This document shows, piece after piece, positions 14,998 to 32,545 of a DNA stretch of 32,662 bases. The stretch spans positions 1 to 32,662 of the forward strand of contig JAMPEW010000033.1 in the NCBI GenBank assembly GCA_023664775.1, given 5' to 3'. Each line of letters begins with the position of its first letter. Position 1 is the first letter of the stretch. Source of the DNA: Clostridium sp. (GTDB lineage: Bacteria; Bacillota; Clostridia; Lachnospirales; Lachnospiraceae). Position numbers and translations under genes: made by a program. A model generated the notes under the pieces. That model saw only the letters and a program-made list of their open reading frames with translations, ran no database searches and was not told the DNA's origin.

Positions 14998-15054
14998 CTC
15001 ATTTTGTGTGCGTGTAAAATAATAATAAGCGCATGAAAGATGAGGAGAATTAGC

Positions 15055-15693
15055 ATGTTTAGAAGATTAAGAAAGCAAACATATATGACACTTTTGGGAA
15101 TTACGATGCTTGGCGGAGTATTATCAGCAGGAAAAGATGCAAGGGCAGAGGAACATTCAGGAGATAGCACGCCGAATGAAGTGGTGCTCGATGTAACAGG
15201 CATCACGTACAACATATCAGGCGAGGGTCCTTATGCAGTGGGATGTGCATTTGAGGTGCGCGGCGAGGAGCTGGACCTATCGGGCTTTTCCACAATATCA
15301 CCTGAGGAGGCATACGAGAGGATGCTTGCCATGGAGGCTAGCTACCCTACAGGTACTTCATGGACGAATGGTAATTCATATGCGTGGAGCTGTGGATGGT
15401 CAGCGGCAGGCTGTATGGGCTTTGCACATATGATAAGTGACGCCGCGTTTGGCGATGCTTCCTTTCGGACAATAGAAAATGACGGCAGCGGAAACATGTA
15501 TGATAAAATTAAGGTTGGGGACATTGTAAGAACGGATTACAACAGTCATTCCGTAATCGTCCTTGAAAAAAACAGTGACTACATAGTTGTTGCCGAGGGA
15601 AACTGGGGTGGTCAGGTTTTATGGGGAAGAACCATATCAAAGGATAAGATAAACGGTGATTGCGCTTATATCGAGACGAGGTATGGGGAGTAG
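15055..15693 (+). CDS. Secreted cysteine-peptidase-like (NlpC/CHAP-type) protein
   Basis: 212 residues with a signal peptide: basic MFRRLRKQ, a hydrophobic core, then cleavage after DARA (about residue 31). A single domain follows (about 78-210). It contains CGWSAAGCMGFAHMISDAAFG, NSHSVIVLE and VVAEGNWG, in the order Cys-His-polar of NlpC/P60, CHAP or related papain-like folds. Cys120 and His165 are the likely catalytic pair, with Glu181 or Asn183 as third residue. The start at 15055 has GAGGAG 7 nt upstream; an in-frame ATG at 15040 is less well placed. The next gene carries a paralogous domain with about half of residues identical by eye. The substrate could be peptidoglycan peptides or a surface protein; the family is not firmly identified. 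Confidence 0.7.
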   Translation: MFRRLRKQTYMTLLGITMLGGVLSAGKDARAEEHSGDSTPNEVVLDVTGITYNISGEGPYAVGCAFEVRGEELDLSGFSTISPEEAYERMLAMEASYPTGTSWTNGNSYAWSCGWSAAGCMGFAHMISDAAFGDASFRTIENDGSGNMYDKIKVGDIVRTDYNSHSVIVLEKNSDYIVVAEGNWGGQVLWGRTISKDKINGDCAYIETRYGE

Positions 15694-15833: not shown

Positions 15834-17336
15834 ATGCGAAAAAAGGCATTTGCAACTGTAATAACTTGTATTTTTTTATTTAGTTCATTAGGTGGCGGTT
15901 CTGTTAATGCAATGGAACTAATGACGGACACGGATGCTGCAATAGAACTGATGACAGAGACTGATGCTGCAATTGATGATGATTCTACGGGCGAAACAGA
16001 CAGTTATGTTGAAAGTGATATAGATGAGGTATTGGAAGACGAGTTTAATGTTTATGCAAGTTATTCTACAATATCTTCAGACGAGGCATATAATAGAATG
16101 ATTGCCATAATGCCGCAATATCCTACAGGAATGACTTGGACAAATGATAATTCTTATACGTGGAATTGTGGATGGCAAGCATGGGGGTGCATGGGCTTTG
16201 CGCACTTGGTAAGTGATGCGGCTTTTGGCAATGCGGGATTTCGCACATTAAGTGATATTAGTGGTGACTGGTTTGATGCCATAAGGGTTGGTGATGTTCT
16301 TAGAGTGCCGTCTAATCATTCGGTTACTGTGCTGCAGATATATGATGATTATGTAGTTGTTGCAGAGGGAAACGCTAGTAGCACGATTAGATGGGGCAGG
16401 ACAATCTCAAAGGATACTATTAATAGTGAATGTTCATATATTGAAACGAGATATGCGGCAGATGCCCAAACAATAACGATTAGTCCGGAGACGGGATACC
16501 GTCTGTGGATGGTGGATGTTGGACCAAGGTGTTTTGATATGGAAATTGGTGATACGTACAAATTTTCAGCAACGATAACACCGAAAAACAGTAATGCAAC
16601 TATTCAGTGGACATCCAGTAATCCGGATGTGGCAGAGGTTTCCCAAGACGGAACGATAACTGGAAAGTATGTAGGAAAAGCAGTAATAACAGCGACATAC
16701 ATGGAAGCAGGTGTGTCGTCTTCTTATGAGGTTAATGTTATGCTGCCATACTCTGTTCCAACTGGAATATTTTTTCTGAAAAATGATCATACGGGATATA
16801 TAGCAGGCATTACCACCACGAATGTATCACCAAAATTTGAAGTGGAATACAGTTGGTATGCCAAGAGGGAATATGAGGAAAATGAGGAGTGTATATCTGA
16901 TTGGACATACGATAATGAATGGTTGAATTGGACGCCTAAGAAATATGGAAATTATACCTTGATTGGAAAAACGAGGGTAGATGGTGACGATGAAACCATA
17001 GAGGAAGTCAGAACAGATATAAGCTACAGCCCTTACATTAAAGGAAAATGTCAGATGCCTTATACGGGAGAGGGCGGAGGATACCTTATTGGTTTTGAAA
17101 CGTATGATAATCCTGGTCAAAAATACAGATATGAGATTTTAATTCTTGACTGTACATTGCTTGCGGAGGGAAAGGATGCATGGATATATACGACTACACA
17201 ATGTGGTGTGGAAGAAGGAAATGCATTTTGGACAATATGGCAGCCTAAGTATGGCTACTATTGGACACTTTTCAGATTGTTTGATGAAGATGGCAATTTA
17301 ATAGATGAGCAATGCTATGGTTTTCAAAACATATAA
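15834..17336 (+). CDS. Secreted cysteine-peptidase-like protein with BIG2 domain and shared C-terminal module
   Basis: 500 residues. Order: signal peptide 1-26 (cleavage near SVNA); an acidic Thr/Asp stalk with two copies of ELMT(D/E)TDAAI (28-47); a cysteine-peptidase-like domain about 78-208 (Cys112 and Cys119 in CGWQAWGCMGFAH, His162 in NHSVTVL, VAEGN); a BIG2 immunoglobulin-like domain about 215-303 (ATITP, IQWTSSNPDVAEVSQDGTITG); and the shared C-terminal module 305-500. AGGAG stands 7 nt before the ATG. The permease gene starts only 22 nt after the stop, so this secreted protein is probably in the glycan-export operon. There is no LPXTG, SLH or dockerin sequence. It may act on the cell wall or on surface proteins while held by the C-terminal module. 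Confidence 0.75.
   Translation: MRKKAFATVITCIFLFSSLGGGSVNAMELMTDTDAAIELMTETDAAIDDDSTGETDSYVESDIDEVLEDEFNVYASYSTISSDEAYNRMIAIMPQYPTGMTWTNDNSYTWNCGWQAWGCMGFAHLVSDAAFGNAGFRTLSDISGDWFDAIRVGDVLRVPSNHSVTVLQIYDDYVVVAEGNASSTIRWGRTISKDTINSECSYIETRYAADAQTITISPETGYRLWMVDVGPRCFDMEIGDTYKFSATITPKNSNATIQWTSSNPDVAEVSQDGTITGKYVGKAVITATYMEAGVSSSYEVNVMLPYSVPTGIFFLKNDHTGYIAGITTTNVSPKFEVEYSWYAKREYEENEECISDWTYDNEWLNWTPKKYGNYTLIGKTRVDGDDETIEEVRTDISYSPYIKGKCQMPYTGEGGGYLIGFETYDNPGQKYRYEILILDCTLLAEGKDAWIYTTTQCGVEEGNAFWTIWQPKYGYYWTLFRLFDEDGNLIDEQCYGFQNI
16746..17333 (+). other. Shared C-terminal surface module, copy 1
   Basis: Residues 305-500 of the protein at 15834. First half: GIFFLKNDHTGYIAGITT, then YSWYAKREYE, NEWLNWTPKKYGNYTLIG. 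Second half: KGKCQMPYTGEGGGYLIG, YEILILDCTLLAEGKDAW, WTIWQPKYGYYWTLFR, IDEQCYGF. Cys406, Cys440 and Cys494 are shared with the other copies. This is the most divergent of the three in the first half. Confidence 0.85.
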
Positions 17337-17358
17337 GTAGAAAGTGAGTATTTTTTAA

Positions 17359-18186
17359 ATGAGCAAGAAAAAATCTCTGCTTAATATGGAGGTTATAAAG
17401 GATACAGGTAAAAATCTGATTTATGATAGAAAACTGATACTGAATTTGGCTAAAAATGATTTTAAAACAAAATATGCAGGGTCATATTTTGGGATATTTT
17501 GGGCATTTGTGCAGCCGATTATATTGATGCTTGTATACTGGTTTGCACTTGACATCGGACTAAGATCTGGGGATATGCTTGATTATCCGTTTGTGCTGTG
17601 GTTAATGTGTGGACTTGTACCTTGGTTTTTCTTTGCAGACGCATTTGGTTCAGGAGCCAATGCTCTTACAGAATATAGCTATCTCGTAAAAAAAGTTGTA
17701 TTTAAAATTGATATTCTGCCAATAGTAAAGGTAACATCTTCAATATTTGTGCATTTGATATTTGTTGTGCTTACTATAATACTGCATGCGTTCTATAGCT
17801 TCTATCCTGATTTATATACCCTTCAGGTGTTATATTATATTATATGCATGTTTGCGCTTTTAATTGCACTTGCATATATTACAAGTTCCATTATAATCTT
17901 CTTTAAGGATTTGAATCAGGTCATATCTATAATATTGCAGGTTGGAATATGGGCTACGCCTATTATGTGGAATGCGGTAAATATATCTCCTAAATTGAAT
18001 ACTGTGATGAAGATTAATCCAATATATTATATTGTAAATGGATTTAGAGACACCTTTTTAGACAAAATTTGGTTTTGGGAAAGACCGAGGTGGACGATTG
18101 GTTATTGGATTGGAGTTTTTATTTTGTATGTAGTGGGAAGAAATATATTTAAAAGGTTACAGGTTCACTTTGCAGATGTTTTATAA
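17359..18186 (+). CDS. ABC-2 type polysaccharide export permease (Wzm/TagG-like)
   Basis: 275-residue membrane protein with about six hydrophobic segments. It carries the family marks AKNDFKTKYAGSYFGIFWAFVQPI near the N-terminus, a central GLVPWFFFADA, and a C-terminal NPIYYIVNGFRD. Proteins of this type pair with an ATPase to export lipid-linked O-antigen, teichoic acid or other cell-wall glycan. The matching ATPase is two genes downstream. The ribosome binding site is weak (AAAGTGAG), and the gene starts 22 nt after the secreted protein at 15834, which suggests one transcript. Confidence 0.9.
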   Translation: MSKKKSLLNMEVIKDTGKNLIYDRKLILNLAKNDFKTKYAGSYFGIFWAFVQPIILMLVYWFALDIGLRSGDMLDYPFVLWLMCGLVPWFFFADAFGSGANALTEYSYLVKKVVFKIDILPIVKVTSSIFVHLIFVVLTIILHAFYSFYPDLYTLQVLYYIICMFALLIALAYITSSIIIFFKDLNQVISIILQVGIWATPIMWNAVNISPKLNTVMKINPIYYIVNGFRDTFLDKIWFWERPRWTIGYWIGVFILYVVGRNIFKRLQVHFADVL

Positions 18187-18206
18187 ATAATGAAAGGAAA
18201 TTGATA

Positions 18207-19037
18207 ATGAATATTTTAGTGACTGGAGCAAATGGATATATTGGAAGGCATGTTGTGGAAACTTTATTGGATATGGGACATCAGGTTAGTGTATCAGATA
18301 TATGTTATGACGATGTGGACAAAAGGGCGATAAAATATGATGTTGAGCTTTTTGGAGGAGATGTGGACATATATCAGAGGTTTGGTTGTCCGGATGTGTG
18401 CATACATTTGGCATGGAGAAACGGATTTGTCCACAATGATTTAAGTCATATCAATGATTTGCCTAAGCACTATGAATTTATAAAAAATATGATAGACGGA
18501 GGATTACGGCATATCGTAGTTATGAGCACAATGCATGAGGTTGGATATTGGGAAGGTGCCATTGATGAAAACACGCCGTGTAATCCAAGCTCTCTTTATG
18601 CTGTGGCTAAAAATACCTTGAGGCAGCTTACATTTCTTCTTGCAAAAGAAAAGGATATATGCTGTCAGTGGATACGAGGATATTATATTATAGGCGATGA
18701 TCTGAAAAATAACTCGATTTTCTCTAAGCTTGTTCTTGCGGAAAAAGATGGAAAAAAAGAATTTCCATTTACAACAGGCAAAAATAAATATGATTTTATA
18801 AGTGTAAATGAGCTTGCACAGCAGATTGCCGCAGTATCCCTGCAAACTGAGATTGATGGGATTATAAATTGCTGTTCGGGCATACCTATATCGCTTGCTG
18901 ATAAAGTTGAAGGATTTATAAAGGATAATAATTTCAACATAAAGTTAAAATATGGTGTGTTTCCTGACAGGGCATATGATTCGCCTGCTGTATGGGGAGA
19001 TGCAGCAAAGATAAAAAAAATCATGTTACAGAAATGA
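18207..19037 (+). CDS. Extended SDR, NAD-dependent sugar-nucleotide epimerase/reductase
   Basis: 276-residue Rossmann protein with TGANGYIG at the N-terminus, HLAW after the third strand, STMHE, and SLYAVAKN giving the catalytic Tyr131/Lys135. It is shorter than UDP-glucose epimerases and closer in size to dTDP-4-keto-6-deoxyhexose reductases. A product such as a deoxyhexose fits the setting, but the substrate cannot be read from sequence. The frame opens with a TTG at 18201, but AAAGGAAA is better placed for the ATG at 18207. It lies 20 nt after the permease gene and 24 nt before the ATPase gene, so it supplies the same glycan pathway. Confidence 0.8.
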   Translation: MNILVTGANGYIGRHVVETLLDMGHQVSVSDICYDDVDKRAIKYDVELFGGDVDIYQRFGCPDVCIHLAWRNGFVHNDLSHINDLPKHYEFIKNMIDGGLRHIVVMSTMHEVGYWEGAIDENTPCNPSSLYAVAKNTLRQLTFLLAKEKDICCQWIRGYYIIGDDLKNNSIFSKLVLAEKDGKKEFPFTTGKNKYDFISVNELAQQIAAVSLQTEIDGIINCCSGIPISLADKVEGFIKDNNFNIKLKYGVFPDRAYDSPAVWGDAAKIKKIMLQK

Positions 19038-19061
19038 ACCGTGAAAATTGGGGGATAAAAC

Positions 19062-20342
19062 ATGAGTGATATAGCTATAAGTGTTGATAAAGTGAGTAAG
19101 CTATATAAGCTATACGACAAGCCTTCCGACAGATTAAAGGAGACGTTGGGATTCACAAAAGAAAAAAAATACAGAGAGCATTTTGCACTTTCTGATGTGA
19201 GCTTTCATGTTAAGAAAGGTCAAACAGTAGGAATAATAGGTACGAACGGGTCGGGAAAATCAACTGTTTTGAAGATTATTACTGGTGTACTCAATCCGAC
19301 ATCAGGGAAAGTGGATATATCAGGCAGAATATCTGCTTTGCTGGAATTGGGAGCAGGATTCAATATGGAGTATACCGGAATAGAAAACATATATCTTAAC
19401 GGTACAATGATGGGCTATTCAAGAGAAGAAGTGGATGAAAAGCTACAGACCATTTTGGATTTTGCTGATATAGGTGATTTTGTAAAGCAACCGGTAAAAA
19501 CATATTCAAGTGGTATGTTTGTTCGGCTTGCTTTTGCTGTGGCAATTAACATTGATCCTGAGATTCTTATAGTTGATGAAGCACTGTCCGTGGGAGATGT
19601 ATTTTTTCAGGCGAAATGCTATCATAAGTTTACCGAATTTAAAAATGCGGGGAAAACCATATTGTTTGTAAGTCATGACCTTGGAAGCATTGCAAAATAT
19701 TGTGACAAGGTCATATTACTTAACAAGGGAATAAAGATGGCTGAGGGTGATCCCAAAGAGGTAATAGATTTGTATAAGCAGGTACTAGTTAGTAATGCTG
19801 AAAATCGGGACTTAGGTGAAACTGGCACTGCAATCAACGAAGAACAGAAGCTGACTGAGGATGGAGCAGCATGGAAGGAAAGTCTGATGCAAAATCCTAA
19901 TGCACTTGAGTATGGGAACAAATATGCACAAATTATTGATTTTGCAATTATAGATGATAAGGGGAGAATAACAAACAACATTCAAAAAAATACAGAATTT
20001 AAAATAAGAATGAAAGTTAAATTTAATAAGGATATCGAAGAACCCATTTTTGCATTTACAATAAAAGATTTGCAGGGAACAGACGTTACAGGCACCAATA
20101 CAATGTATGAGCTTTTAAATTTCGGCTTGGTTAAACATGACGAGGTAAAGGTTATAGAGTTTTCACAAAACATGAATTTGCAGGGAAAAAATTACCTTTT
20201 ATCTTTTGGATGCGTAGGCTATGAAAATAATGATTTTGTCGTATATAACAGACTGTATGATGTGTGTAATATTAATGTCATTTCTGATAAAAATACTGTG
20301 GGTTTTTATGATATGAATTCATCGGTAAAGGTTCTTTGTTAA
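19062..20342 (+). CDS. Polysaccharide export ABC ATPase with Wzt-type C-terminal domain
   Basis: 426 residues. ATPase domain about 1-245: Walker A GTNGSGKST (60-68), signature YSSGM (148-152), Walker B ILIVDE (168-173), switch His205. An extra C-terminal domain of about 145 residues (280-426) is beta-rich (IIDFAIIDDKGR, NTEFKIRMKVKF, IFAFTIKDLQG, YLLSFGC) and matches the Wzt C-terminal carbohydrate-binding type. In O9a and O8 antigen export this domain recognises the capped non-reducing end of the chain. GGGGG lies 7 nt before the ATG. It works with the permease two genes upstream. The presence of the Wzt domain is a reason to look for chain capping enzymes, and two candidates follow. Confidence 0.92.
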   Translation: MSDIAISVDKVSKLYKLYDKPSDRLKETLGFTKEKKYREHFALSDVSFHVKKGQTVGIIGTNGSGKSTVLKIITGVLNPTSGKVDISGRISALLELGAGFNMEYTGIENIYLNGTMMGYSREEVDEKLQTILDFADIGDFVKQPVKTYSSGMFVRLAFAVAINIDPEILIVDEALSVGDVFFQAKCYHKFTEFKNAGKTILFVSHDLGSIAKYCDKVILLNKGIKMAEGDPKEVIDLYKQVLVSNAENRDLGETGTAINEEQKLTEDGAAWKESLMQNPNALEYGNKYAQIIDFAIIDDKGRITNNIQKNTEFKIRMKVKFNKDIEEPIFAFTIKDLQGTDVTGTNTMYELLNFGLVKHDEVKVIEFSQNMNLQGKNYLLSFGCVGYENNDFVVYNRLYDVCNINVISDKNTVGFYDMNSSVKVLC

Positions 20343-20360
20343 TATGTGGAGGAATTTGGT

Positions 20361-21284
20361 TTGAAAAACAATACTGAATATGTAGGCAAAGTGATGCTTG
20401 ATTACGGGTTCTACGGAGGAACAGACCTATATGTTGATGGCTCTGAAGAGGAGCTTTTAGATATAGTAAAACAGTATGACAATAGTGAATATAATAGGGT
20501 TATTGCTGAGAAAAAAAAGTGGCCCATATTATATCATTTATCAAATCTGCGGGGGAATATAGTTGACTGTATTCCTTTTACGAAAAATGATAAAGTTTTG
20601 GAAATTGGTGCAGGCTGTGGTGCGATTACGGGTACTATTGCAAAAAAGGCAGGTAAAGTTGACTGTATCGAGTTATCAAGGATGAGAAGCCTTGTAAATG
20701 CAGAAAGAAATAAGCACATGGACAATATTGTTATAACAGTGGGAAATTTTCAGGACATCGAAAGAAAAATCACGGAAAAATATGATTATATAACATTGAT
20801 AGGTGTGTTGGAATATGCAGGTAAGTATATAGCTTCAGACAATCCGTATGAAGATTTCATAATAATGCTTAAAGATCATCTCAATGAGAATGGTAAAATC
20901 GTTTTAGCCATTGAGAATAAATATGGACTTAAATATTGGGCTGGCTGTCGGGAAGATCATTTGGGTACTTTTTTTTCAGGAATAGAAGGGTATGTTGATG
21001 TTTATGATGTGAGGACATTTTCTAAAAACGAACTGCAAAAAATCTTTGTTGATTGTGGGTTCAATGACGTTATGTTTTATTATCCTTATCCTGATTATAA
21101 ATTTCCTATAACAATATATTCTGACAGTTATCTGCCTAAAATAGGAGGCTTATCAAATAATATGAATAATTTTGACAGTGACAGAATGATGTTGTTTGAT
21201 GAGATGAAAGTATATGATAACCTGATTGCTGACGGAATGTTTGATTTTTTTTCAAATTCCTTTATGGTAATCGCAGGTCCTTAG
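20361..21284 (+). CDS. Class I SAM-dependent methyltransferase, putative glycan-capping
   Basis: 307 residues. The SAM-binding motif VLEIGAGCGAITG is at about 79-91, and the acidic loop CIELSRMRS at about 102-110; a C-terminal half of about 150 residues follows. Start choice: a GTG at 20346 overlaps the GGAGG itself, so the TTG at 20361, 8 nt after GGAGG, is preferred; no ATG is available. It starts 18 nt after the ATPase stop, and a kinase-like gene follows within 36 nt. By analogy with WbdD of E. coli O9a, it could methylate a terminal sugar or phosphate of the exported chain. The fold is clear; the substrate is inference. Confidence 0.8.
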   Translation: MKNNTEYVGKVMLDYGFYGGTDLYVDGSEEELLDIVKQYDNSEYNRVIAEKKKWPILYHLSNLRGNIVDCIPFTKNDKVLEIGAGCGAITGTIAKKAGKVDCIELSRMRSLVNAERNKHMDNIVITVGNFQDIERKITEKYDYITLIGVLEYAGKYIASDNPYEDFIIMLKDHLNENGKIVLAIENKYGLKYWAGCREDHLGTFFSGIEGYVDVYDVRTFSKNELQKIFVDCGFNDVMFYYPYPDYKFPITIYSDSYLPKIGGLSNNMNNFDSDRMMLFDEMKVYDNLIADGMFDFFSNSFMVIAGP

Positions 21285-21320
21285 CATAAGATGCCGTGAC
21301 ATCTGAATAAGAGGTGCAAT

Positions 21321-22676
21321 ATGCAAAAAATTATTTTTACAAAATATTCTAATGACAGAAACCCTGATTATAATATAAAAACGAGCATAATGGAAGATGG
21401 GAAAGGAAACAGATATGTTTATAAGACTGGTGTCTCCGATGGTGGAAAAAAGCATATCAGGAACATGTATGAAAATTCACGTAAGCTTCAGGAAGTGTTT
21501 TCTGACTCAATATTTGAAATAAATAAAAGCGAAATGAAGGATGACAACCTTTTGCTGGAATATGTGTATGGTGAAACGCTGGAAGAAACATTAGATAGAT
21601 ATCTTGCGTCAAAGAATTACGACGCATTTACTGCTCTGATAAAAAAATATGCATATGAGATGAGAAAAAATGCTGTGAACAAATTTGTTCCATGTGAGGA
21701 ATATTACAAGGTGTTTGGTAAGACTGCAGTTGATACGGCAAATTGTGGGGCAATGCTGCCTTGCGATATTGATCTGATTTTTCCTAATATTATTGATGCT
21801 GACGGAAAATGGACGATTCTTGATTACGAATGGGTATTTAACTTCGCCATTCCCGTTGATTTTGTGTTGTTCAGGGCAATTTATTATTATGATTTTCCGT
21901 GTAGGGCAAAATTGCTGGATGGTATTAATCTTTGTAAATTGTTAGAAATTGATGAGAAACTATATGATGTTTATAAAGCTATGGATGATGAATTTCAAAA
22001 TTATGTTTTTAATGGAAATATACCATTGTGGGAGCTTTATGGAAAATTCGGTAAGAAAGTCCATTTTGCAGGGGGACTACCGATGGAAAATGTGAAATAC
22101 AAAATAGAATGTATTAGGTTTTATGCGGACCATTATGTATCAGAATATATTGATATATTTCCTGACGAGAATGGAAAGGTAGCGGTTTATATAGATGTGG
22201 ATGAAAGTGTCCAAACACTTGCAGTAGATCCTGCAAGCTGCAGTTGTATTGTACATGTTGATAAGGCCTTGGGGATTGCAGATGATGAATATGAATTATT
22301 ATATGGCAATAACGGAGAATCGACAGACAATAAAACAATATACTTTAACCATGGTGATCCGAGGTTTTTGTTTGATGATTTTCACTCAGGCATAAAACAG
22401 ATATATTTTGAATTTCATATAAATTATATTGATAATGAAAGTAGCAACCATATATGCAAAATGATTGGTGATTTCAATGATATAAGATATAGTAATTTAA
22501 CGAAAGATTCATTAATTGCGGAACAGTCAGAAAATATGAAAACGCTCCGACAGGAACTTACGGAACAGTCAGAAAATGTGAAGGCACTCCAACAGGAACT
22601 TGAAAATATAAAAAATTCAACAAGTTGGAAAATAACTGAACCTATGAGGAATATAACAAAAAAGATAAGGAGATAG
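21321..22676 (+). CDS. Kinase-fold protein with C-terminal coiled coil, putative glycan kinase
   Basis: 451 residues. The N-terminal 200 residues follow the small-molecule/protein kinase plan: Lys35 in RYVYKTG, hinge-like LLLEYVYGET (about 77-86), catalytic loop DLIFPN with Asp151 and Asn156, and the metal-binding Asp168 in WTILDYEW. The His that usually precedes the catalytic Asp is replaced. A middle part (about 240-390) is unassigned. The C-terminal end is a coiled coil containing two copies of EQSENxKxLxQEL, then NSTSWKITEPMR, an ending common in surface-glycan enzymes. The AGAGGTG ribosome binding site is 4 nt from the ATG. Kinase, coiled coil and the neighbouring methyltransferase together resemble WbdD split in two. 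Activity is not proven by motifs alone. Confidence 0.65.
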   Translation: MQKIIFTKYSNDRNPDYNIKTSIMEDGKGNRYVYKTGVSDGGKKHIRNMYENSRKLQEVFSDSIFEINKSEMKDDNLLLEYVYGETLEETLDRYLASKNYDAFTALIKKYAYEMRKNAVNKFVPCEEYYKVFGKTAVDTANCGAMLPCDIDLIFPNIIDADGKWTILDYEWVFNFAIPVDFVLFRAIYYYDFPCRAKLLDGINLCKLLEIDEKLYDVYKAMDDEFQNYVFNGNIPLWELYGKFGKKVHFAGGLPMENVKYKIECIRFYADHYVSEYIDIFPDENGKVAVYIDVDESVQTLAVDPASCSCIVHVDKALGIADDEYELLYGNNGESTDNKTIYFNHGDPRFLFDDFHSGIKQIYFEFHINYIDNESSNHICKMIGDFNDIRYSNLTKDSLIAEQSENMKTLRQELTEQSENVKALQQELENIKNSTSWKITEPMRNITKKIRR

Positions 22677-22678
22677 TT

Positions 22679-24577: not shown

Positions 24578-24646
24578 TTTACTGTCATTGGCTGGATGAG
24601 GTAAGACTATAGGGGCGGTAATGCATAACGTGAAAGAAGGGATTAT

Positions 24647-26743
24647 ATGAAAAATAAACGTTGGCTGAAAACGTCAATATTGCTTTTAATGGCTATAATG
24701 CTGAGTCTTTGCTGTATTCGATATCCTGTTATAGCTTTAGCGGAACAAAATAGTGATGTTCCGTTTGAAGAAAAAAATGGTTGTGAGGAATTTGAATGTA
24801 TAGAAATATCTGCTGAAGAAGCATATCTGTTTTCAGAAAAATTCGATGTTCAGGAACAGGCGCTTTATGTAGCAGGACGAAATTGGAGTATATATGGAAA
24901 TGATTATTGCAGGGAAAGATTGACGGCTGAAGAAAAGGAATTTTATGATGACATTGACAGTGTATGCAGAAAATACATAAATACAGATGTTGATGCTGAA
25001 TACAATGAGAGCTTTCAAAATTATTATATTGAAAGTGTTTCGTACAATGGGCTTGAATATGAGAGGGCAAAGGATATAGCATTTTTATATGCATATCAAA
25101 ATCCACAATATTATTTTTTGTCTTCAGGATTGATTTATAACCCGACTCGGAAAATAATATGGCTGAGATGTTATGATGCCTTTGCAGACGGCGAGGCAAG
25201 AAAAAGGGTAACAGAGGCATTTTTCGATAAAATTGACGCATGGACGATAGAGATAAGTGCAGAAGCAAATGACTATGATAAAGAAAAAAAGGCATATGAC
25301 ATTGTATGCCAAAATGTAGTTTACAAAGCAGGAGAATATGACCAATCGGCATACAGTGCTGTGATGCAGGGAGAGTCTGTCTGTGCCGGTTACACAAAAA
25401 TGTTTGGAATAATTATGAATGCTTCGGGTATTGATACTGTAGGAATAACAGGCTCTGGGCATGCATGGAATAAGGTTCATTTATATGGTAAGTGGTATAA
25501 TGTTGATTCTACATGGGATGATTTAGGGAACATAAGTGGTAATAATTATTTTAACAAATCTGATGCCAATATACGAACAGGACATGTGCCTTTCAGTATA
25601 TATGATGGACTTGCGCCTCTTGCATATGAGGATTATACAGTGAAGCCAGAAAAGATTGTGTCTGTAACGGGTATTACAATTGATAAGAACTCATGCAATC
25701 TTATTATGGGTAACAATGAAACATTAAATCTGACTGTCCAGGTAAGTCCTGCGGATGCGACGGATAAAACCACGTGGTGGCAGTCATCCGATACCAATGT
25801 AGCTTCTGTGAATCAGGATGGAGTTGTTACTGCAGTGGGACCAGGGGAAACAAATATAATGGTTATAACTACGGATGGATTGTATGTAGCGGTTTGTAGG
25901 ATTAATGTATATGCGGTATATGATATACCACAGGCTCCCACGGAAAAAAGTAAATCCGATACAAGCATAACGCTCAATGAAATTGCCGGATGTCTGTATT
26001 CTCTTGACGGAATAAACTGGCAAAGCAGTACTACATTTAATAACCTTAAACCGAATACAGCATATAACTTTTATGCAAAGAGGGCAGGTGCAGGCTTTTA
26101 TATGGAAAGTGATAAAAGCAGCGGAACGTCCATTTGGACAAAAGCAGTAGATTCAGAGGTGACCTCAAGCGGCTTGTATGTCGCAGAGCATAACAACAGA
26201 CATATTTTGGTCGGCATGGTTACGACAGCTACAAATCCTGCGGATTTAGAATACAGGTGGCTTGCATACCGTACGGATACAGAGGAGTGGAGCGAAATAC
26301 GAGACTGGGTAGCAAATGATGAGTGGCTTGACTGGACACCTGATTTGTCGGGACAATATATACTATTAGGACAGGCAAGAGTAATAGGAAATGAGGACAG
26401 TATTGCCGAAGCCGACATAGGAATAGAACATCATAAGCAGATAAAGGGTAAATGTCAGATGCCATATATCGGTGAGGGAGGAGGATATCTTATCGGTGTT
26501 GAATCCTTTGACAATCCAAATCAGGCGTATCAATATGAGATGCTGATATTAGATTGTACGCTGCTTGCCCAGAATAAGCCTGCATGGATATATACAACCG
26601 GTAAAACAAAAGTGAGCGAAGGAAATGCGCTTTGGACAATTTGGCAGCCAAAATACGGATATTATTGGACACTTTTCAGGATTTATGATGAAAATGGAAC
26701 AATGATTGACGAGGAGTGTTATGGTTTTGTGAATGCATATTAG
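24647..26743 (+). CDS. Secreted transglutaminase-like protein with BIG2 domain and shared C-terminal module
   Basis: 698 residues. Order: signal peptide about 1-32 (cleavage near IALA); an N-terminal unassigned region to about 210; a transglutaminase-like core with the triad Cys246 in GESVCAGYTKMF, His272 in SGHAWNKV and Asp287 in YNVDSTWDD; a BIG2 domain about 338-424 (VSVTGITIDKNS, VNQDGVVTAVGPG); a short Ig or Fn3-like part 430-500; and the shared module 504-698. Such domains can be proteases or protein cross-linkers; the intact triad supports activity. The ribosome binding site is AAGGGAT. The gene starts 69 nt after the RgpF gene with no terminator seen between, so it may share the transcript. 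Confidence 0.82.
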   Translation: MKNKRWLKTSILLLMAIMLSLCCIRYPVIALAEQNSDVPFEEKNGCEEFECIEISAEEAYLFSEKFDVQEQALYVAGRNWSIYGNDYCRERLTAEEKEFYDDIDSVCRKYINTDVDAEYNESFQNYYIESVSYNGLEYERAKDIAFLYAYQNPQYYFLSSGLIYNPTRKIIWLRCYDAFADGEARKRVTEAFFDKIDAWTIEISAEANDYDKEKKAYDIVCQNVVYKAGEYDQSAYSAVMQGESVCAGYTKMFGIIMNASGIDTVGITGSGHAWNKVHLYGKWYNVDSTWDDLGNISGNNYFNKSDANIRTGHVPFSIYDGLAPLAYEDYTVKPEKIVSVTGITIDKNSCNLIMGNNETLNLTVQVSPADATDKTTWWQSSDTNVASVNQDGVVTAVGPGETNIMVITTDGLYVAVCRINVYAVYDIPQAPTEKSKSDTSITLNEIAGCLYSLDGINWQSSTTFNNLKPNTAYNFYAKRAGAGFYMESDKSSGTSIWTKAVDSEVTSSGLYVAEHNNRHILVGMVTTATNPADLEYRWLAYRTDTEEWSEIRDWVANDEWLDWTPDLSGQYILLGQARVIGNEDSIAEADIGIEHHKQIKGKCQMPYIGEGGGYLIGVESFDNPNQAYQYEMLILDCTLLAQNKPAWIYTTGKTKVSEGNALWTIWQPKYGYYWTLFRIYDENGTMIDEECYGFVNAY
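26156..26740 (+). other. Shared C-terminal surface module, copy 2
   Basis: Residues 504-698 of the transglutaminase-like protein: GLYVAEHNNRHILVGMVTT, LEYRWLAYRTDTEEW, NDEWLDWTPDLSGQYILLG, then KGKCQMPYIGEGGGYLIG, YEMLILDCTLLAQ, WTIWQPKYGYYWTLFR and IDEECYGFVNAY at the very C-terminus. It is nearly identical to the GH9 copy in the second half. Confidence 0.88.
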
Positions 26744-26780
26744 GGCTATTAAGTAAATTTTACCATTGAAGGTAAGTTTA

Positions 26781-26809
26781 TTGTGATAAAGGGTCAGTTG
26801 TGATAAAAT
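26781..26809 (+). promoter_or_regulatory. Candidate promoter of the autolysin-GH9 operon
   Basis: TTGTGA (26781-26786), 17-nt spacer, TAAAAT (26804-26809), about 40 nt before the TTG start. The -10 matches at five of six positions. Confidence 0.5.
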
Positions 26810-26852
26810 TTAATTTATAAAATAGACACAAGAAAAGAGAGGTGCTTTTATT

Positions 26853-29800
26853 TTGAAAAAAATAAAAAGAATAATTGCGTTAATACTGAGTGTTTCCATC
26901 TTCCTTTCAAACGGTTGGATTGAAAGCTTGGCAGCAGAAAGAGTACATAAGGAATATAATAATGAATTCTATGAGGACACGGCTACAGATACTGATGCAC
27001 AATGTGCTACAGAAAGCGATGGGGCGCTTGACAGTGAAAACAGTATTCTTTTAAACTATCTTGTTGTAGACAAACCAAGCATTACTACAACTGATACCCA
27101 AAATATTCTCGTAGGCTTGGGAGATGGGAATGTTGTTTTTGATAATGCAGTACTTTACTATAAGAATGAGGAAAGTGGTACAGAGTACAGCAGTTATGCA
27201 AAAAGCGTTGACAGTGAGTCGGCACTTTTTGAGATATTAATTGATAAAAGCTATACATCAGGTAAATATATTATTACGGCTGTTGAGTACATGGCAGGAG
27301 AAACATCACATACTATATATTTATATGATGCAGGCATTCATGCATCATTTGGTGTTGACGACATTATAGAAACAGAAGCAGATGCTTATGTAGAAGATGT
27401 TGTAGATGAAATGATTTCAGATGCAGTAATTGTCAGTGATGACGGAGTTGTTACTGCGCAGGAAATGGAAAGCGCAGTTTTGGCAGCATCTGATGGTGCA
27501 GTAATGGCAAAAAATAAAAATGACATTGTTATAGTATTGGATCCCGGACACGGAACATCTAGTGGAGATCCTGGTGCTACATATGAATGGAATGGTGTTA
27601 CATATATTGAGAGAGATCTTAATTTGAAGATTGCCCAATATTGCAAGGAAGAACTTGAAAAATATAATGGCGTTAAGGTTTATCTGACAAGAACAACAAG
27701 TAATAATGGACTTGATTTGAGTGCGCCTAAAGGGGAATCTGTAGGACCTCTTGTTAAGTTTGCTGCTGATTTGGATGCTGATATATTTGTGAGCATACAT
27801 AACAATTCGGCAACTGTAGCAACTGCAAATGGCTCAGAGGTTTATTATCCTAATGCCAATTACAATCCGGAAATGAGTAAGGATGCTAAGGAATTGAGTG
27901 ATAAAATTTTGAGTAAGCTGTCAGAGTGCGGACTTACGAATAGAGGGGCTAAAATCAGGGATGATTCAGGAAATGTTCAATATTATCCGGATGGGTCTTT
28001 GGGTGATTATTACGGAGTAATAAGACAGTCAAAATTGTGTGGTTTCCCTGGAATAATAATAGAGCATGCTTTTTTGACAAATCAATCTGATGCAGAAAAC
28101 TTTTTGGGTTCAGATGAGAAATTAAAAAAGCTTGGACAGGCAGATGCAGCAGCTCTTATAGAATATTTTGGACTTACACAGGACTCGGAATATAAAGAGG
28201 ACGCAGCAACATTAACAGTTGTACAGAATAATCCTGACGGCTCCTATACGGTTGTTGTTTCAGGAGTAAATGCAGCAGGTAAAGTAGAAGTTCAGGTTAC
28301 AAGTAAAAGGACCGAGCAGATAAAAGATTATGGGACAATCGGACAAGGCGGTAATTGGTACGCAAGGTTCGACATAAATGATTTTGAAGCTTTTGGTTCA
28401 TATTTATTTGAGGCGTACGTTGTAAGGGAAAACGGAACAAGGTACAAGGTTGGAGAAACTGAAATTGAAGTAGCCTGTGCTAATAAAAGTGAAATTACAA
28501 TAAAAAATATTGACAGTTCAAATGGAACTTTTGATGTTATTATATCGGATATAGAAAGTTCTAATGGAATTTCTAAGGTACAGCTTTTGGCATGGTCAGA
28601 CAGTGATATGGGTAATCAATATCTTTATGATGCTAAAAAACAGGTAGATGGTACTTACTCGGTTCAGGTGAATTTAAAAAATCATAAAAATTATTATGGA
28701 AGCTACACTGTTCAGGCATTTGTTACGGATACAAAGGGAGTAAGGGTAAACACGGCTGAAAAACATCAGGATATAGTTCAGCCGGCATCCAAGGTGTCTG
28801 CATTTGATCCGGGTGACCAGAATACATATATACTTATTGCGGAAAATATACCTTCTGGTTATGATGTAGAAAATGTTAAATTTGGAGTGTGGCATCAGGG
28901 ATTAAGCGATTTAAAATGGTATGAGGGAAGCTTGGACTCATATGGACGATGGCTGGCACTTATGCCGATATCCGACTATGGCAAAAGTGGAAGTTATTAT
29001 ACAGATGCGTATGTGACTTTGGCAGACGGACAATTTATTAAAATCGGGAGCAGCTCATTTGATGTAAGTGCCCCGACTGCTACAACCATATATGTTACCA
29101 ACGAAAACAGGAGCGGTGGAACGTTTGATATTATTGTTTCAGGAATAAATACAGCATCGGGGATTGCAAGCATCAGAATACCTGTATGGTCTGAGCAGGA
29201 TTTGAGCGATTTATATTGGTATAATGCAGAAAGACAAAGCGATGGAACCTATATCGCACATGTAAATATTAAAAACCATAAGTACAATTATGGTGTCTAC
29301 GCAATGCAAGCATACGTAAAGGCAAATAATGGTGTTGAGGTGGTTGCATTAAGTAAATGCCATGATTTTGCCGAACCAACGCCAAAGGTTTCAACATTTC
29401 AGTGTGATAATGAGTTTAATTACATACTTATTGCGGAGGACATTCCGAAAGGAGATTTCGTTACCAGCGTTAGATTTGGAGTATGGAATCAGGGCTTAAG
29501 TGATTTAAAATGGTATCAGGCTGGTAAAGATGAATTTGGCAGGTGGCTGGCAGTGGTTGGTGTATCCGAGTATGCCAAAAGTGGCACCTATTACGGAGAT
29601 GCATATATGACCTTGAAGGATGGCAGTACAGTGAAATTAGGCGGTACGTCATTTAATGTCAGTTCACCTACTGTAAATAAAATGTATGTTGACAATGCGG
29701 ATAATATCGGGGGAACCTTTGACATAAAAATAGAGGGAGTAAATTGTATTCCTGGTATAGAAAGTATAAGGGTGCCTGTTTGGTCAGCGGCTGATTTAAA

Positions 29801-30509
29801 AGACATTCATTGGTACGATGCAAAAAAGGAAAGCGACGGAAATTATGTAGTGCATGTGGATATAAACAATCACAAAAATAATTATGCTACATATGCAATG
29901 CAGGTATACATAAAAGCAAAGAACGGTGTGGAAAATATTGCAGCCAGTCAGTGTTACACCTTTAAACAGCCGGAGGAAAAGCTTTATAAAATTATGGGAA
30001 GTAATGGAACTTCACTTGAACAGATGGTAAGATATTATAATAGTTATGCAACATATCCGGCGTTCTACGCTACTACGGACGCTCCGACTATACAAGATTT
30101 CTGTAAAATATATATAGAGGAATGTAATGCTGAGGGTGTAAAGGCTGAGGTCGCTTTTTGCCAGGCAATGAAAGAAACCGGTTTCTTGAGATTTGGAGGA
30201 GTGGTTGACATTTCACAATTAAATTTTGCAGGAATAGGCGCAACAGATGATGGGGGTACACCGGCAACATTTACATCTGTCCGCGAGGGCATAAGAGCAC
30301 AGGTTCAGCATCTCAAAGCCTATGCTTCTGATGAACCACTTGTAAATGCGTGTGTAGATCCTAGATTTGTGCTTGTTACCAGAGAAACGGCACAATATGT
30401 AGAGTGGCTTGGTATTCAGGAAAATCCATACGGAAAAGGTTGGGCTTCGGCGAAGGAATATGGATATTCCTTGAGGAAAGGCTATATTGAGGTATTGTTA
30501 AGTAAGTAA
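26853..30509 (+). CDS. Bifunctional autolysin: N-acetylmuramoyl-L-alanine amidase plus glucosaminidase
   Basis: 1218 residues. Order: signal peptide about 1-28; Thr/Asp-rich stalk (about 41-62, with TDTDA); an unassigned beta domain about 65-165; Amidase_3 about 224-440 with zinc ligands His233 (DPGHG), Glu253 and His316 (SIHNN) and catalytic Glu404 (IIEHAFL); six GBS_Bsp-like repeats 451-1040; and a C-terminal glucosaminidase-type domain about 1045-1218 with Glu1108 in QAMKETGF as the likely catalytic acid. Cutting both peptide-glycan and glycan bonds suggests a role in cell separation or wall turnover. The start is TTG with GAGAGGTG 9 nt upstream; no ATG fits. The GH9 gene follows after 20 nt. 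It lacks the shared C-terminal module; its repeats are the likely wall anchor. Confidence 0.92.
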   Translation: MKKIKRIIALILSVSIFLSNGWIESLAAERVHKEYNNEFYEDTATDTDAQCATESDGALDSENSILLNYLVVDKPSITTTDTQNILVGLGDGNVVFDNAVLYYKNEESGTEYSSYAKSVDSESALFEILIDKSYTSGKYIITAVEYMAGETSHTIYLYDAGIHASFGVDDIIETEADAYVEDVVDEMISDAVIVSDDGVVTAQEMESAVLAASDGAVMAKNKNDIVIVLDPGHGTSSGDPGATYEWNGVTYIERDLNLKIAQYCKEELEKYNGVKVYLTRTTSNNGLDLSAPKGESVGPLVKFAADLDADIFVSIHNNSATVATANGSEVYYPNANYNPEMSKDAKELSDKILSKLSECGLTNRGAKIRDDSGNVQYYPDGSLGDYYGVIRQSKLCGFPGIIIEHAFLTNQSDAENFLGSDEKLKKLGQADAAALIEYFGLTQDSEYKEDAATLTVVQNNPDGSYTVVVSGVNAAGKVEVQVTSKRTEQIKDYGTIGQGGNWYARFDINDFEAFGSYLFEAYVVRENGTRYKVGETEIEVACANKSEITIKNIDSSNGTFDVIISDIESSNGISKVQLLAWSDSDMGNQYLYDAKKQVDGTYSVQVNLKNHKNYYGSYTVQAFVTDTKGVRVNTAEKHQDIVQPASKVSAFDPGDQNTYILIAENIPSGYDVENVKFGVWHQGLSDLKWYEGSLDSYGRWLALMPISDYGKSGSYYTDAYVTLADGQFIKIGSSSFDVSAPTATTIYVTNENRSGGTFDIIVSGINTASGIASIRIPVWSEQDLSDLYWYNAERQSDGTYIAHVNIKNHKYNYGVYAMQAYVKANNGVEVVALSKCHDFAEPTPKVSTFQCDNEFNYILIAEDIPKGDFVTSVRFGVWNQGLSDLKWYQAGKDEFGRWLAVVGVSEYAKSGTYYGDAYMTLKDGSTVKLGGTSFNVSSPTVNKMYVDNADNIGGTFDIKIEGVNCIPGIESIRVPVWSAADLKDIHWYDAKKESDGNYVVHVDINNHKNNYATYAMQVYIKAKNGVENIAASQCYTFKQPEEKLYKIMGSNGTSLEQMVRYYNSYATYPAFYATTDAPTIQDFCKIYIEECNAEGVKAEVAFCQAMKETGFLRFGGVVDISQLNFAGIGATDDGGTPATFTSVREGIRAQVQHLKAYASDEPLVNACVDPRFVLVTRETAQYVEWLGIQENPYGKGWASAKEYGYSLRKGYIEVLLSK
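28203..29975 (+). repeat. Three tandem two-domain repeats inside the autolysin
   Basis: Six GBS_Bsp-like domains alternate in type A (xKVSxFxxxxxNYILIAExIP ending GRWLA) and type B (GGTFDIxVxGI, SIRxPVWS, NHKxNY). The A-B pairs start at 28203, 28782 and 29379. The second and third are spaced by exactly 199 residues (597 bp), and the first is slightly shorter and most divergent. This points to stepwise duplication of a 199-residue unit. Confidence 0.8.
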
Positions 30510-30529
30510 TTTAATCAGGGAGGGGTTAT

Positions 30530-32545
30530 ATGAAAAGAAAAATAGCAGTATGTCTTACAGCAATTATGATGCTTATGTCAATTAATGTTTATGAAGCTAA
30601 GGCGGCTGATATAGAGGCCAATTATGCCAAATTGCTACAGTATTCATTATATTTTTATGATGCGAATATGTGTGGCGATGGCGTGGACGAGCACAGTATG
30701 TTGTCATGGCGAGGGGATTGTCATACGTTTGACAAAACTACATATACCAGAAGTGATGGAAGCACTGTGACGGTTGATTTGGCAGGCGGCTTTCATGATG
30801 CAGGAGACCATGTAAAATTTGGATTGCCTGAAGCGTACGCTGCATTTGTACTTGGAATGAGCTATGATACAAGTAGGGAAGCATATGAGTATGCAGGACA
30901 GGTTGGACATCTTCAGACCATTACAACATATTTTGCAGATTATTTTGTGAACTGTGCTGTGCTGAGTAGTGATGGAAGTTATGTCGAGGCATTTTGCTGT
31001 CAGGTGGGACAAGGCGGCGGAGGATATGACCATGGCTATTGGGGGGCACCTGAAAACCAGACAAATGCAAATAGACAGATTTATTTTACAAGTGCGTCAG
31101 CGCCTTCTACGGATATTGTTTGTTTAAGTGCAGCGGCTTTGGTTATACAGTATAAGAATTTTGGCGGAGAACAGTATCTTGACACTGCAAAAAAACTCTT
31201 TGATTATGCAAAAAGAAACAACAAGGCAGTTAATACAACTGCGAATGGATTTTATAATTCCACAGGCTGGGAAGATGATTATTGTCTGGCTGCTATTTTA
31301 CTTTATCAGGTAACGTCAGATTCACAGTATCTTTCTGAATTTAATAATTACGCAGGAAGCAATAATGCTCAGAAGCCCTATTGGCCTTTGGGCTGGGATA
31401 ATGTGGGACCGGCTGTTGCATATTATAATGGAAATTCAAATGCACTTTCAACACTGATGAATCAGTACAGTGGAAGAACGAATAGCGACGGCTTTTGTTG
31501 TATTGATAGTTGGGGTTCGGCAAGATATAACACATCCATGCAGTATACAGGACTTTTGTATGACAGCATGACAGGAACAAATACAAATCTTACGTGGGCA
31601 GAAAATCAGATGAAATATCTGCTTGGAAATAACCCGAGAAATCAGTGTTACGTTGTAGGATATAATCAATACAGTGCAAAATATCCGCATCACAGGGCAG
31701 CTTCAGGATATACAGGCGGACCTCAAGGGACCAACACACAGGCAAATGTTTTGCTTGGTGCATTGGTAGGAGGACCGAAGCAGGGTGGTGAGTATATTGA
31801 TTCGGCAAGTGATTATCAATGTAATGAAGTTGCAATAGATTATAATGCAACGCTTGTTGCCGCAACTGCCGCACTTTATTACAGACATATAGGCGAATCG
31901 GATCAATACATTGATACAAATTATTATGTTGATGGTACAAGTGGCGGAGGAACGGGTACTACACCTATTATTTCCCGGGGAATTTATGTCGCTGAAAATT
32001 CTCCAACGAGAATTTTAGCAGGTATGACTACAAACTATACGGATAAGTCAGGTCTGGAATACAGGTGGGTTGCCTGTAAACAGGAGGATGAAAAATGGTT
32101 TGAGGTATCAGGATGGACACAGGGGAATGAATGGCTTGACTGGTCACCGGATACATACGGCAATATAATTCTTGTATGTCAGGTTAGGAAGGTTGGAGAT
32201 GAGACATCAACAGTGGAGTCCAGTGTTGGAATACAGCATCACATTATCAAGGGAATATGCCAAATGCCATATACAGGCGAGGGTGGCGGCTATCTTATTG
32301 GCGTGGAAACTTATAATAATCCAAACCAGTCATTTAGGTATGAATTGCTCATATTAGACTGTACTTTACTTGCTGAAGGTAAGGATGCATGGATATGGTC
32401 TACCGGACAGCATACTGTACCAGAGGCGGCTTTTTGGGCAGTATGGCAGCCAAAATATGGATATTATTGGACGCTTTTCAGAATATATGATGAAAAGGGA
32501 AATCTTATTGACGAGGAATGTTACGGATTTGTGAATGCATATTAA
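30530..32545 (+). CDS. Secreted GH9 endoglucanase with shared C-terminal module
   Basis: 671 residues. Signal peptide about 1-26 (cleavage near AKAA). The GH9 catalytic domain is about 28-460 with Asp90/Asp93 in GGFHDAGDHVKFGLP, His387/His388 in YPHHRAAS, and acid Glu433 in CNEVAIDYNATLVAA. A Gly/Thr linker (470-478) leads to the shared module at 483-671. There is no N-terminal Ig-like domain and no CBM3 or dockerin, so the C-terminal module is the only candidate for binding or anchoring. Expected action: endo- or processive cleavage of cellulose or mixed beta-1,4-glucan. GGGAGGGG lies 4 nt before the ATG, 20 nt after the autolysin. Cello-oligosaccharides released could feed the kinase/GH1 route at the other end of the window. 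Confidence 0.93.
   Translation: MKRKIAVCLTAIMMLMSINVYEAKAADIEANYAKLLQYSLYFYDANMCGDGVDEHSMLSWRGDCHTFDKTTYTRSDGSTVTVDLAGGFHDAGDHVKFGLPEAYAAFVLGMSYDTSREAYEYAGQVGHLQTITTYFADYFVNCAVLSSDGSYVEAFCCQVGQGGGGYDHGYWGAPENQTNANRQIYFTSASAPSTDIVCLSAAALVIQYKNFGGEQYLDTAKKLFDYAKRNNKAVNTTANGFYNSTGWEDDYCLAAILLYQVTSDSQYLSEFNNYAGSNNAQKPYWPLGWDNVGPAVAYYNGNSNALSTLMNQYSGRTNSDGFCCIDSWGSARYNTSMQYTGLLYDSMTGTNTNLTWAENQMKYLLGNNPRNQCYVVGYNQYSAKYPHHRAASGYTGGPQGTNTQANVLLGALVGGPKQGGEYIDSASDYQCNEVAIDYNATLVAATAALYYRHIGESDQYIDTNYYVDGTSGGGTGTTPIISRGIYVAENSPTRILAGMTTNYTDKSGLEYRWVACKQEDEKWFEVSGWTQGNEWLDWSPDTYGNIILVCQVRKVGDETSTVESSVGIQHHIIKGICQMPYTGEGGGYLIGVETYNNPNQSFRYELLILDCTLLAEGKDAWIWSTGQHTVPEAAFWAVWQPKYGYYWTLFRIYDEKGNLIDEECYGFVNAY
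31976..32542 (+). other. Shared C-terminal surface module, copy 3
   Basis: Residues 483-671 of the GH9 protein: GIYVAENSPTRILAGMTT, LEYRWVACKQEDEKW, NEWLDWSPDTYGNIILV, then KGICQMPYTGEGGGYLIG, YELLILDCTLLAEGKDAW, WAVWQPKYGYYWTLFR and IDEECYGFVNAY. The three Cys (577, 611, 664) and nearly all aromatic residues of the second half match the other copies. Confidence 0.88.

Follow-up and report, generated by a model that had tools for sequence, protein, structure and literature searches.

A predicted tandem fibronectin-III-like module at the C-terminus of secreted Clostridium proteins, a probable non-covalent surface anchor that follows the type of the adjacent glycan exporter

Several described systems can be compared with the module reported here. 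Surface and cell-wall proteins of Clostridioides difficile carry, according to PMC9045149, the CWB2 domain, whose ligand is a secondary wall polymer (polysaccharide II) and which has a relative in a phage endolysin; this polymer binding resembles the role proposed below. The surface retention of Listeria GW modules depends on the glycosylation of a wall polymer, wall teichoic acid, in the accounts of PMC7155027 and PMC7238011, and RbmA of Vibrio cholerae is presented in PMC5605196 as a tandem fibronectin type III (Fn3) protein that binds the exopolysaccharide of its own cell. Proteins with ChW repeats are described in PMC5817068 as mostly endolysins, with a wall ligand given there as not known, and an endolysin tail, assigned to ChW by the manual alignment of its authors and not by Pfam, gives non-covalent surface display (PMC6700490). 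The module described here, module A, comprises about 195 residues and closes three proteins encoded in a stretch of 32,662 nucleotides from Clostridium sp. (Lachnospiraceae; GenBank GCA_023664775.1, contig JAMPEW010000033.1, positions 1 to 32,662), which is called the window. Module A belongs in kind with the non-covalent wall-anchor modules and is probably a surface anchor that binds the glycan of the adjacent Wzm/Wzt cluster; what sets it apart appears to be its predicted fold, together with the way in which the type of anchor goes with the type of exporter.

The three window proteins (15834–17336, 24647–26743 and 30530–32545; all window features given here lie on the + strand) end in copies of the same module, as the original prediction, made from the sequence of the window, had claimed. 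Copy 1 occupies 16746–17333 (profile E 1.3e-113) at the C-terminus of the 15834–17336 protein, copy 2 lies at 26147–26740 (1.2e-118) at the end of a transglutaminase-like protein, and copy 3 at 31955–32542 (4.4e-115) closes a glycoside hydrolase family 9 (GH9) protein, with a stop codon directly after each copy. In an alignment of the three copies over 200 columns identity to the first is 53–55%, and a profile built from them re-finds them at E 1e-113 to 1e-118. The same profile gives four further matches (three full copies and one N-half only) in the genome of the window, which thus holds seven profile matches, six full copies and one N-half. Because the profile was built from the three window copies, the other four matches are independent evidence, and at the level of sequence chance is excluded as the source of the similarity. 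The description of the module as two halves was right: the N-half and C-half lie at about 16743–17030 and 17034–17333 in copy 1, at 26147–26434 and 26435–26740 in copy 2, and at 31955–32242 and 32243–32542 in copy 3. In the text below, G000 is the genome of the window, G001 to G036 are genomes of the same genus (37 genomes with G000) and G165 is a further genome of the same family; counts of matches per genome include half-modules and weak matches.

A match to a family already named was looked for. Module A has no match over the cut-off in Pfam and none in NCBIfam, PHROGs or the PDB sequences. When the modules were scanned by themselves with Pfam, everything returned up to E 10 was at chance level. 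Two weak candidates were set aside as chance: a PHROGs endolysin family at E 0.14, found with one of the three copies only, and a fluorescent protein at E 0.029 as the best PDB profile match. None of the three modules matched the families PF00041 (fibronectin type III) or PF07495 (Y_Y_Y) at E values of up to 10, and the best Fn3/Y_Y_Y score of any copy scanned was 20.0 bits for Y_Y_Y, under the cut-off of 26.6. CWB2, SLH, ChW and dockerin are without match in the three carriers (Pfam, E ≤ 0.1) and in the modules (E ≤ 10), no carbohydrate-binding module (CBM) model of Pfam matches module A, and by inspection the three carriers have no LPXTG tail, since they stop directly after the module. The earlier statement that LPXTG, SLH, dockerin and a recognised CBM are lacking agrees with the inspection and with these Pfam results. 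Keyword searches of open papers gave, among the top results of each, no description of module A, of the B repeat treated below or of an exporter-coupled exchange of anchors; motifs cannot be searched in this manner, so that absence from print is not established by them. By its sequence module A is a family new to the libraries searched.

The structure predicted by AlphaFold2 on copy 3 (mean predicted local distance difference test score, pLDDT, 92.1) consists of two fibronectin-III-like sandwiches in tandem and has the seven-stranded beta sandwich of the Fn3 fold. The first half had been called Ig-like; a sandwich fold is indeed predicted, though for both halves, fibronectin-III-like in each, and not for the first half alone. 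That the halves have a common fold is seen in the predicted structure only, and a reading of the C-half as a sequence duplicate of the N-half was rejected (hhalign P 0.21, in register, not significant). The neighbourhoods fetched around module genes contain 86 open reading frames (ORFs) with 87 C-halves, 85 of them distinct, and over these 87 copies the C-half columns conserved at ≥95% include CQxP, GGxLIG, W, WxxWxPxYGYYxTLFR and CxxF; CQMPYTGEGGGYLIG and WxxWxPxYGYYxTLFR are its near-invariant segments. The three cysteines taken as invariant are so in the window copies, and over the 87 copies four Cys positions are conserved, at 99, 94, 83 and 96%. The C-half is the more conserved part, and as the N-half is not detected in 13 of the 87 copies, the C-half is the core; it is most likely the putative ligand-binding part.

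Compared with the systems named above, module A differs from CWB2, which PMC9045149 describes as an open alpha-beta, Rossmann-type fold in triple repeats, by its predicted tandem Fn3 architecture and by the lack of a Pfam match. ChW repeats (PF07538) are short (35 positions in the Pfam model), of other sequence and without Pfam match to module A, and they resemble it by standing C-terminally, in its place, on GH9 orthologues of six related genomes. RbmA shares the Fn3 fold and appears at rank 37 (E 3.6e-5) in one Foldseek list and not among the best 50 of another; it is a whole matrix protein and not an enzyme module, with 11% identity in the structural match. Module A is likewise distinct from the fibronectin type III and Y_Y_Y families, none of which it matches over the cut-off, by the Cys, Trp and Tyr pattern proper to its C-half. 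Side observations touch the N-half. Tandem repeats that resemble it occur in a GDSL-type hydrolase of another Lachnospiraceae genus (L052:412-2319), which suggests by sequence likeness that the N-half belongs to a wider family of Fn3-like repeats. A DUF5722 protein of about 745–780 residues, present in several A-type genomes (L131:7692-10004, from which the Pfam assignment comes; relatives in L075, L079, L081, L123 and L132), has an N-half-like domain without C-half and about 200 more C-terminal residues, and it adjoins module genes in some of these genomes.

The proteins that carry the module differ widely in their N-terminal parts. That of the first window carrier (15834–16745) has a secretion-signal-like start and a Big_2 domain (E 4.7e-14); its proposed cysteine-peptidase nature was left unconfirmed, as Pfam recognises only Big_2, and a part of the protein resembles CHAP or NlpC, judged by eye only. 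The transglutaminase-like and GH9 assignments stood: the second carrier (24647–26146) matches Transglut_core (4.7e-8) and Big_2 (1.1e-12), and the catalytic part of the third (30530–31954) matches Glyco_hydro_9 (E 6.7e-98). The module was said always to be C-terminal, which is true of 72 of the 76 complete ORFs, where it lies within two residues of the C-terminus. In the remaining four the module stands internally or near the N-terminus and the protein continues for 131 to 531 residues past it: in L102 a hydrophobic start is followed by the module and then NlpC/P60, L099 has a tandem pair of modules and then about 200 residues, L088 is a related protein with a single module, and L074, to which the incomplete ORF L109 is similar, has the module N-terminally. 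The C-terminal position is therefore a strong habit and not a requirement. This matters for the idea that module A is a sorting signal recognised and cleaved on export, as the C-terminal domains of the type IX system are: the 72 carriers that end within two residues of the module would suit it, yet the four complete exceptions, one with the module ahead of NlpC/P60 and one with it twice in tandem, the lack of a hydrophobic tail and a predicted fold that is a complete pair of sandwiches make it hardly credible.

From the 86 ORFs 79 N-terminal parts were prepared (five ORFs of the near-duplicate species G020 and two that were too short were left out); 74 were scanned with Pfam in two batches, the second giving the commonest 25 of 30 families, and the five others, exceptions, were scanned singly. 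Among the families listed for the 74 at E ≤ 1e-5, GH9 was found 9 times, CAP and Big_2 8 times each, LRR_5 6, Transglut_core and YDG 4 each, YkuD and Beta_helix_3 3 each and DUF5722 2, with GH16, NlpC/P60, Cna_B and CBM_4_9 among the single partners; some partner parts are adhesin-like. Many secreted proteins of unrelated function (secretion being judged by eye from the N-termini) thus carry module A, as non-covalent anchor modules do, and no substrate common to all partners is visible. If module A were instead a CBM for plant polysaccharide that directs its enzymes to cellulose or hemicellulose, for instance in the rumen, one would understand why GH9 is the commonest recognised partner (9/74), why the conserved segments are rich in Trp and Tyr and why several carrier records are metagenome-assembled genomes (MAGs) of goat or sheep rumen. 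Such a function is nevertheless quite unlikely, given that L,D-transpeptidases, NlpC/P60, CAP, transglutaminase and LRR proteins are among the partners, that no CBM family of Pfam matches the module, and that orthologues of the GH9 enzyme bear ChW or an endolysin repeat instead.

The relatives of the window GH9 in the genus whose catalytic parts are 62–100% identical to it differ in the tail, which is module A, B repeats, ChW repeats or a type called D, so that other surface-binding modules are found in the place of module A. Tail A is present in nine proteins of nine genomes (G000, G001, G003, G007, G010, G015, G020, G025 and G029), B in G004 and G019, ChW in G002, G005, G008, G011, G014 and G016, and D in G021 and G036; the GH9 contig of G035 stops in a D-like linker. 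Outside these, the GH9 of G165 (45% identity) ends in module A and the distant one of G028 (34%) has none of these tails. The D tail (L220:2303-2851 and L218:2142-2690) is an observation of its own: it combines a linker that is acidic and rich in Ser and Thr with a pair of Lys-rich, Fn3-like domains, the GH9 genomes that bear it are close to that of the window by CarB1, and it is possibly a fourth anchor.

The B repeats, with the pattern YDYxYYxxKYADLKxAFG...HFxxYGMxEGRQA, are predicted to be all-helical (pLDDT 96) and gave no Foldseek match in the PDB at E ≤ 0.001; no Pfam or PDB relative was found for them, and their one weak PHROG match is phrog_14307, without assigned function, at E 1.6e-4 on the B-only protein L240. 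They hold the place of module A on GH9, CAP proteins (47–60% identity between the A and B forms), the 15834-type protein (53% to that of G004), a large protein shared by G003 and G004 (with 48% identity over 856 residues) and an L,D-transpeptidase. They differ from module A in being all-helical, in being often internal (in 18 of 39 complete B ORFs they lie within six residues of the protein end and in the rest internally) and in occurring also in phage endolysins. Five IMG/VR proteins have B; four are lytic enzymes of phage contigs with C-terminal B (one Amidase_2, two phage lysozymes and one GH25) and the fifth has two B units without enzyme domain, while in INPHARED one unannotated record matches B. 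Because of the roles of B and ChW in lytic enzymes and display, module A can be said to hold the place of wall- or surface-binding units (ALTERNATIVES: B, ChW), and surface retention by module A is supported by these units standing in its place. The original reading of the module as a binding or surface-retention domain is accordingly strengthened, by the absence of a named relative, by partners without common substrate and by the surface-type tails of the orthologues. The same comparison bears on the proposal that module A docks its carriers to a surface protein, a scaffold or S-layer partner, on the model of dockerin with cohesin. Fn3 pairs are classical protein-binding folds and one conserved partner would fit the very strong conservation of the C-half across unrelated carriers; no A-confined protein partner was seen among the fetched neighbourhoods compared, however, and B and ChW, which take the place of the module, are parts of wall-acting lytic enzymes, so that docking is considered very unlikely.

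The YkuD-type L,D-transpeptidase shows how one tail may give way to another. In the B genomes G009, G012, G013 and G030 it has three B units; its counterparts in G001, G010 and G029, all of them A genomes, keep a single divergent B unit, the first, which runs directly into the C-half of module A (L090:9152-10315, L101:3588-4751 and L104:8423-9580). On sequence, this looks like a partial replacement of the B tail in place by module A, with the direction read from the hybrids. The transpeptidase contig differs from the Wzm contig in G010 and G029, G001 having no Wzm for comparison. As a separate observation, B scraps with an internal stop, which were counted only, occur in A-type genomes (G003:C11:42866-42997 and G020:C71:713-802) and are possible relics of an earlier B-type state.

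The second line of evidence is the glycan export cluster which the window copies of module A flank. It comprises a Wzm-like ABC-2 permease, the glycan exporter (17359–18186; Pfam ABC2_membrane), a protein like NAD-dependent sugar epimerases/dehydratases (18201–19037; Epimerase E 1.3e-19; in module neighbourhoods of 9 genomes), a Wzt-like ATPase with ABC_tran and Wzt_C (19062–20342; Wzt_C E 6.8e-41), a methyltransferase (20346–21284; Methyltransf_12), a protein without Pfam family above the cut-off (21321–22676) and an RgpF-like rhamnan synthesis protein (22679–24577; RgpF E 2.7e-200). Its genes were each found in 7 to 9 genomes among the neighbourhoods fetched around the module. The 21321 gene was rejected as an A-specific partner since it is present in 26 of the 37 genomes, and the presence of the exporter was rejected as a predictor of module A, since Wzm orthologues (≥37% identity) occur in 27 of the 37 genomes, module-negative ones included. 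Judged from the trees, it is the exporter clade and not its mere presence that matters. The eight best Wzm sequences (66–100%) belong to eight of the ten genomes with at least three A matches, the other two (G001 and G024) showing none in their incomplete assemblies. A against non-A requires a single change on the trees of Wzm (27 genomes), Wzt (27) and the methyltransferase (24), where bootstrap and SH-like approximate likelihood ratio test (SH-aLRT) values for the A clade are 100/100, 94/96 and 94/95. On quick trees of CarB1 and CarB2, counted over the genomes with Wzt only (26 and 20), it requires 8 and 5 changes. A against B requires one change each on Wzm and Wzt, and 5 and 6 on CarB1 and CarB2 (G033, with one A match, being counted as A and G030 as B throughout). 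All independent pairs point in the same direction on both trees, CarB1 (6 of 6, p 0.031) and CarB2 (4 of 4, p 0.125). Close relatives differ in type: the CarB1 distance between G025 (A) and G019 (B) is 0.8%, G003 and G000 (A) stand beside G004 (B), and G029 (A) stands among B genomes. CarB1 alone is not a clean species marker, because in G021 it is 99.7% identical to that of the window (L159) and CarB2 only 90.3%; horizontal transfer of carB in G021 is possible from these values. Taken over these trees, the presence of module A follows the type of the adjacent exporter and not the species, which favours targeting to the cell wall or surface over binding of plant polysaccharide, and the glycan of that exporter is the most likely ligand.

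A match of this kind could also arise if module A were an anchor with another ligand (peptidoglycan, teichoic acid or another glycan) in a locus that moves as a block. All three copies of the window are within the cluster or next to it, and in ChW-rich G015 both full A copies found are on the cluster contig, ≤6 kb from Wzm; part of the copies being linked to the exporter, some of the match between module and exporter is co-transfer. Block transfer by itself is insufficient because many A copies do not share a contig with Wzm (in G003, C11; in G007, C11, C13 and C18; in G020, C45; in G025, C2 and C5; most of those of G010; and in G029) and because the transpeptidase tail differs away from the glycan locus. 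We regard this explanation as unlikely, and retain as the probable one an anchor that binds the glycan of the adjacent cluster. In this model enzymes and adhesins would be secreted in the usual way, with a signal peptide, and the C-terminal tandem Fn3-like module would then hold them on the envelope. Its C-half, with the near-invariant segments, would contact a polysaccharide of the surface or wall that the adjacent Wzm/Wzt-RgpF cluster makes and exports; another exporter clade would go with another tail (B, ChW or the Lys-rich Fn3 pair) on related proteins, as is expected if each anchor fits one glycan. Retention by Listeria GW modules, as covered in PMC7155027 and PMC7238011, concerns one anchor family and its sugar decoration, unlike the present case in which tails of different folds interchange. 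A wider proposal, which we put forward tentatively and hold somewhat short of an even chance, is that an exchangeable "anchor code" operates in the genus. There would be four or more unrelated anchors (A, B, ChW and D), one to suit each type of surface glycan, and a lineage would display most of its secreted proteins on one of them. Horizontal replacement of the glycan locus would then swap anchors genome-wide and leave hybrids (a B unit with the A C-half), mixed genomes and scraps. The direction and cause of the tail exchange are read here from sequence comparison.

Several observations weigh against the explanation preferred here, besides the co-transfer already mentioned. The independent events are few, as their p values show. 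G001, G024 and G033 have module A and no Wzm orthologue was found in them (75, 80 and 71% complete). The window autolysin is without module A, the second GH9 of A-type G007 (L117, C7:112184-113515) ends in a Gly-rich linker and repeats, which we take by eye to be choline- or glucan-binding-like, instead of module A, and the GH9 of B-type G032, split over two contigs, has a D-like tail. Mixed genomes exist: G015 and G024 have A (4 and 3 matches) and are rich in ChW (137 and 83), G015 also has 4 B matches, G033 has 1 A and 49 ChW, and B-type G030, whose exporter does not fall in the A clade, has a single orphan A. Strict mutual exclusivity of the tail types was therefore rejected as a rule, G015 and G024 carrying A together with ChW. 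Nor does ChW go with a single exporter clade: on the Wzm tree G005 and G014 stand apart. Phage collections yielded no module A, either in IMG/VR, where none of 11 pattern matches was confirmed, or in INPHARED, and the plasmids of PLSDB yielded none, so that the endolysin argument rests on B and ChW and not on module A. Two-type genomes are rarer than expected: 2 were observed, and shuffling of labels predicts 7.3 (P 0.0002). The thresholds behind this (A ≥ 3, B ≥ 10, ChW ≥ 18 matches) were set after the counts were seen, and the shuffle ignores relatedness; of the pairwise exclusions B/ChW is significant (p 0.013), and A/B (p 0.058) and A/ChW (p 0.16) are not. The orphan of G030 is an ORF of 193 residues (L105:15544-16125) that contains nothing but module A and lacks the last conserved Cys, and by its sequence it may be an orphan or decayed copy.

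Module A is narrow and patchy in its full form, as the scans of the family, the order and 84,980 species genomes indicate. Within the genus 12 of the 37 genomes have matches, from 1 to 25 per genome. In a family sample of 397 genomes only one further genome, G165, has full copies, six other genomes having weak or partial matches, mostly to the N-half, and in an order sample of 392 genomes no other genome has a full copy and five have weak partial matches. A pattern scan of the 84,980 species genomes gave 14 loci in Lachnospiraceae, Clostridiales and Clostridium, goat and sheep rumen MAGs included, several of which coincide with loci of the genus genomes; the nearest named copy, 98% identical, is from a Clostridium sp. 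MAG. Seven genomes have none of A, B and ChW, and three of them (G021, G035 and G036) have D, with weaker D matches in G005, G028 and G032.

Since module A is absent from the libraries searched, the surface location of its carriers is not predictable from them, and a profile-ready anchor family would help the prediction of surface proteins in these bacteria, known mostly from MAGs, and might serve for display tags. If anchors do change with the glycan, a polysaccharide locus that moves horizontally would be linked to a change of surface proteins throughout the genome. Such a coupling would matter for the specificity of phages, since one of the competing anchors also occurs in endolysins. Should the anchor code be true, the type of anchor would predict that of the glycan, and phage endolysins would take up whichever anchor is current.

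Other features complete the picture. Sortases are present in 32 of the 37 genomes, module-positive and module-negative alike, and offer no contrast. The translation of 15040–15693 is a short paralogue of the 15834 protein without the module, with an 81% identical relative in B-type G004. The window autolysin (26853–30509) has Amidase_3 and glucosaminidase domains by Pfam, with six GBS_Bsp-like repeats between them. The autolysins of six B-type genomes have B repeats ahead of their glucosaminidase-like end, in the position of the GBS_Bsp-like repeats of the window protein, and the autolysin of G001 has weak N-half-like repeats in this central place.

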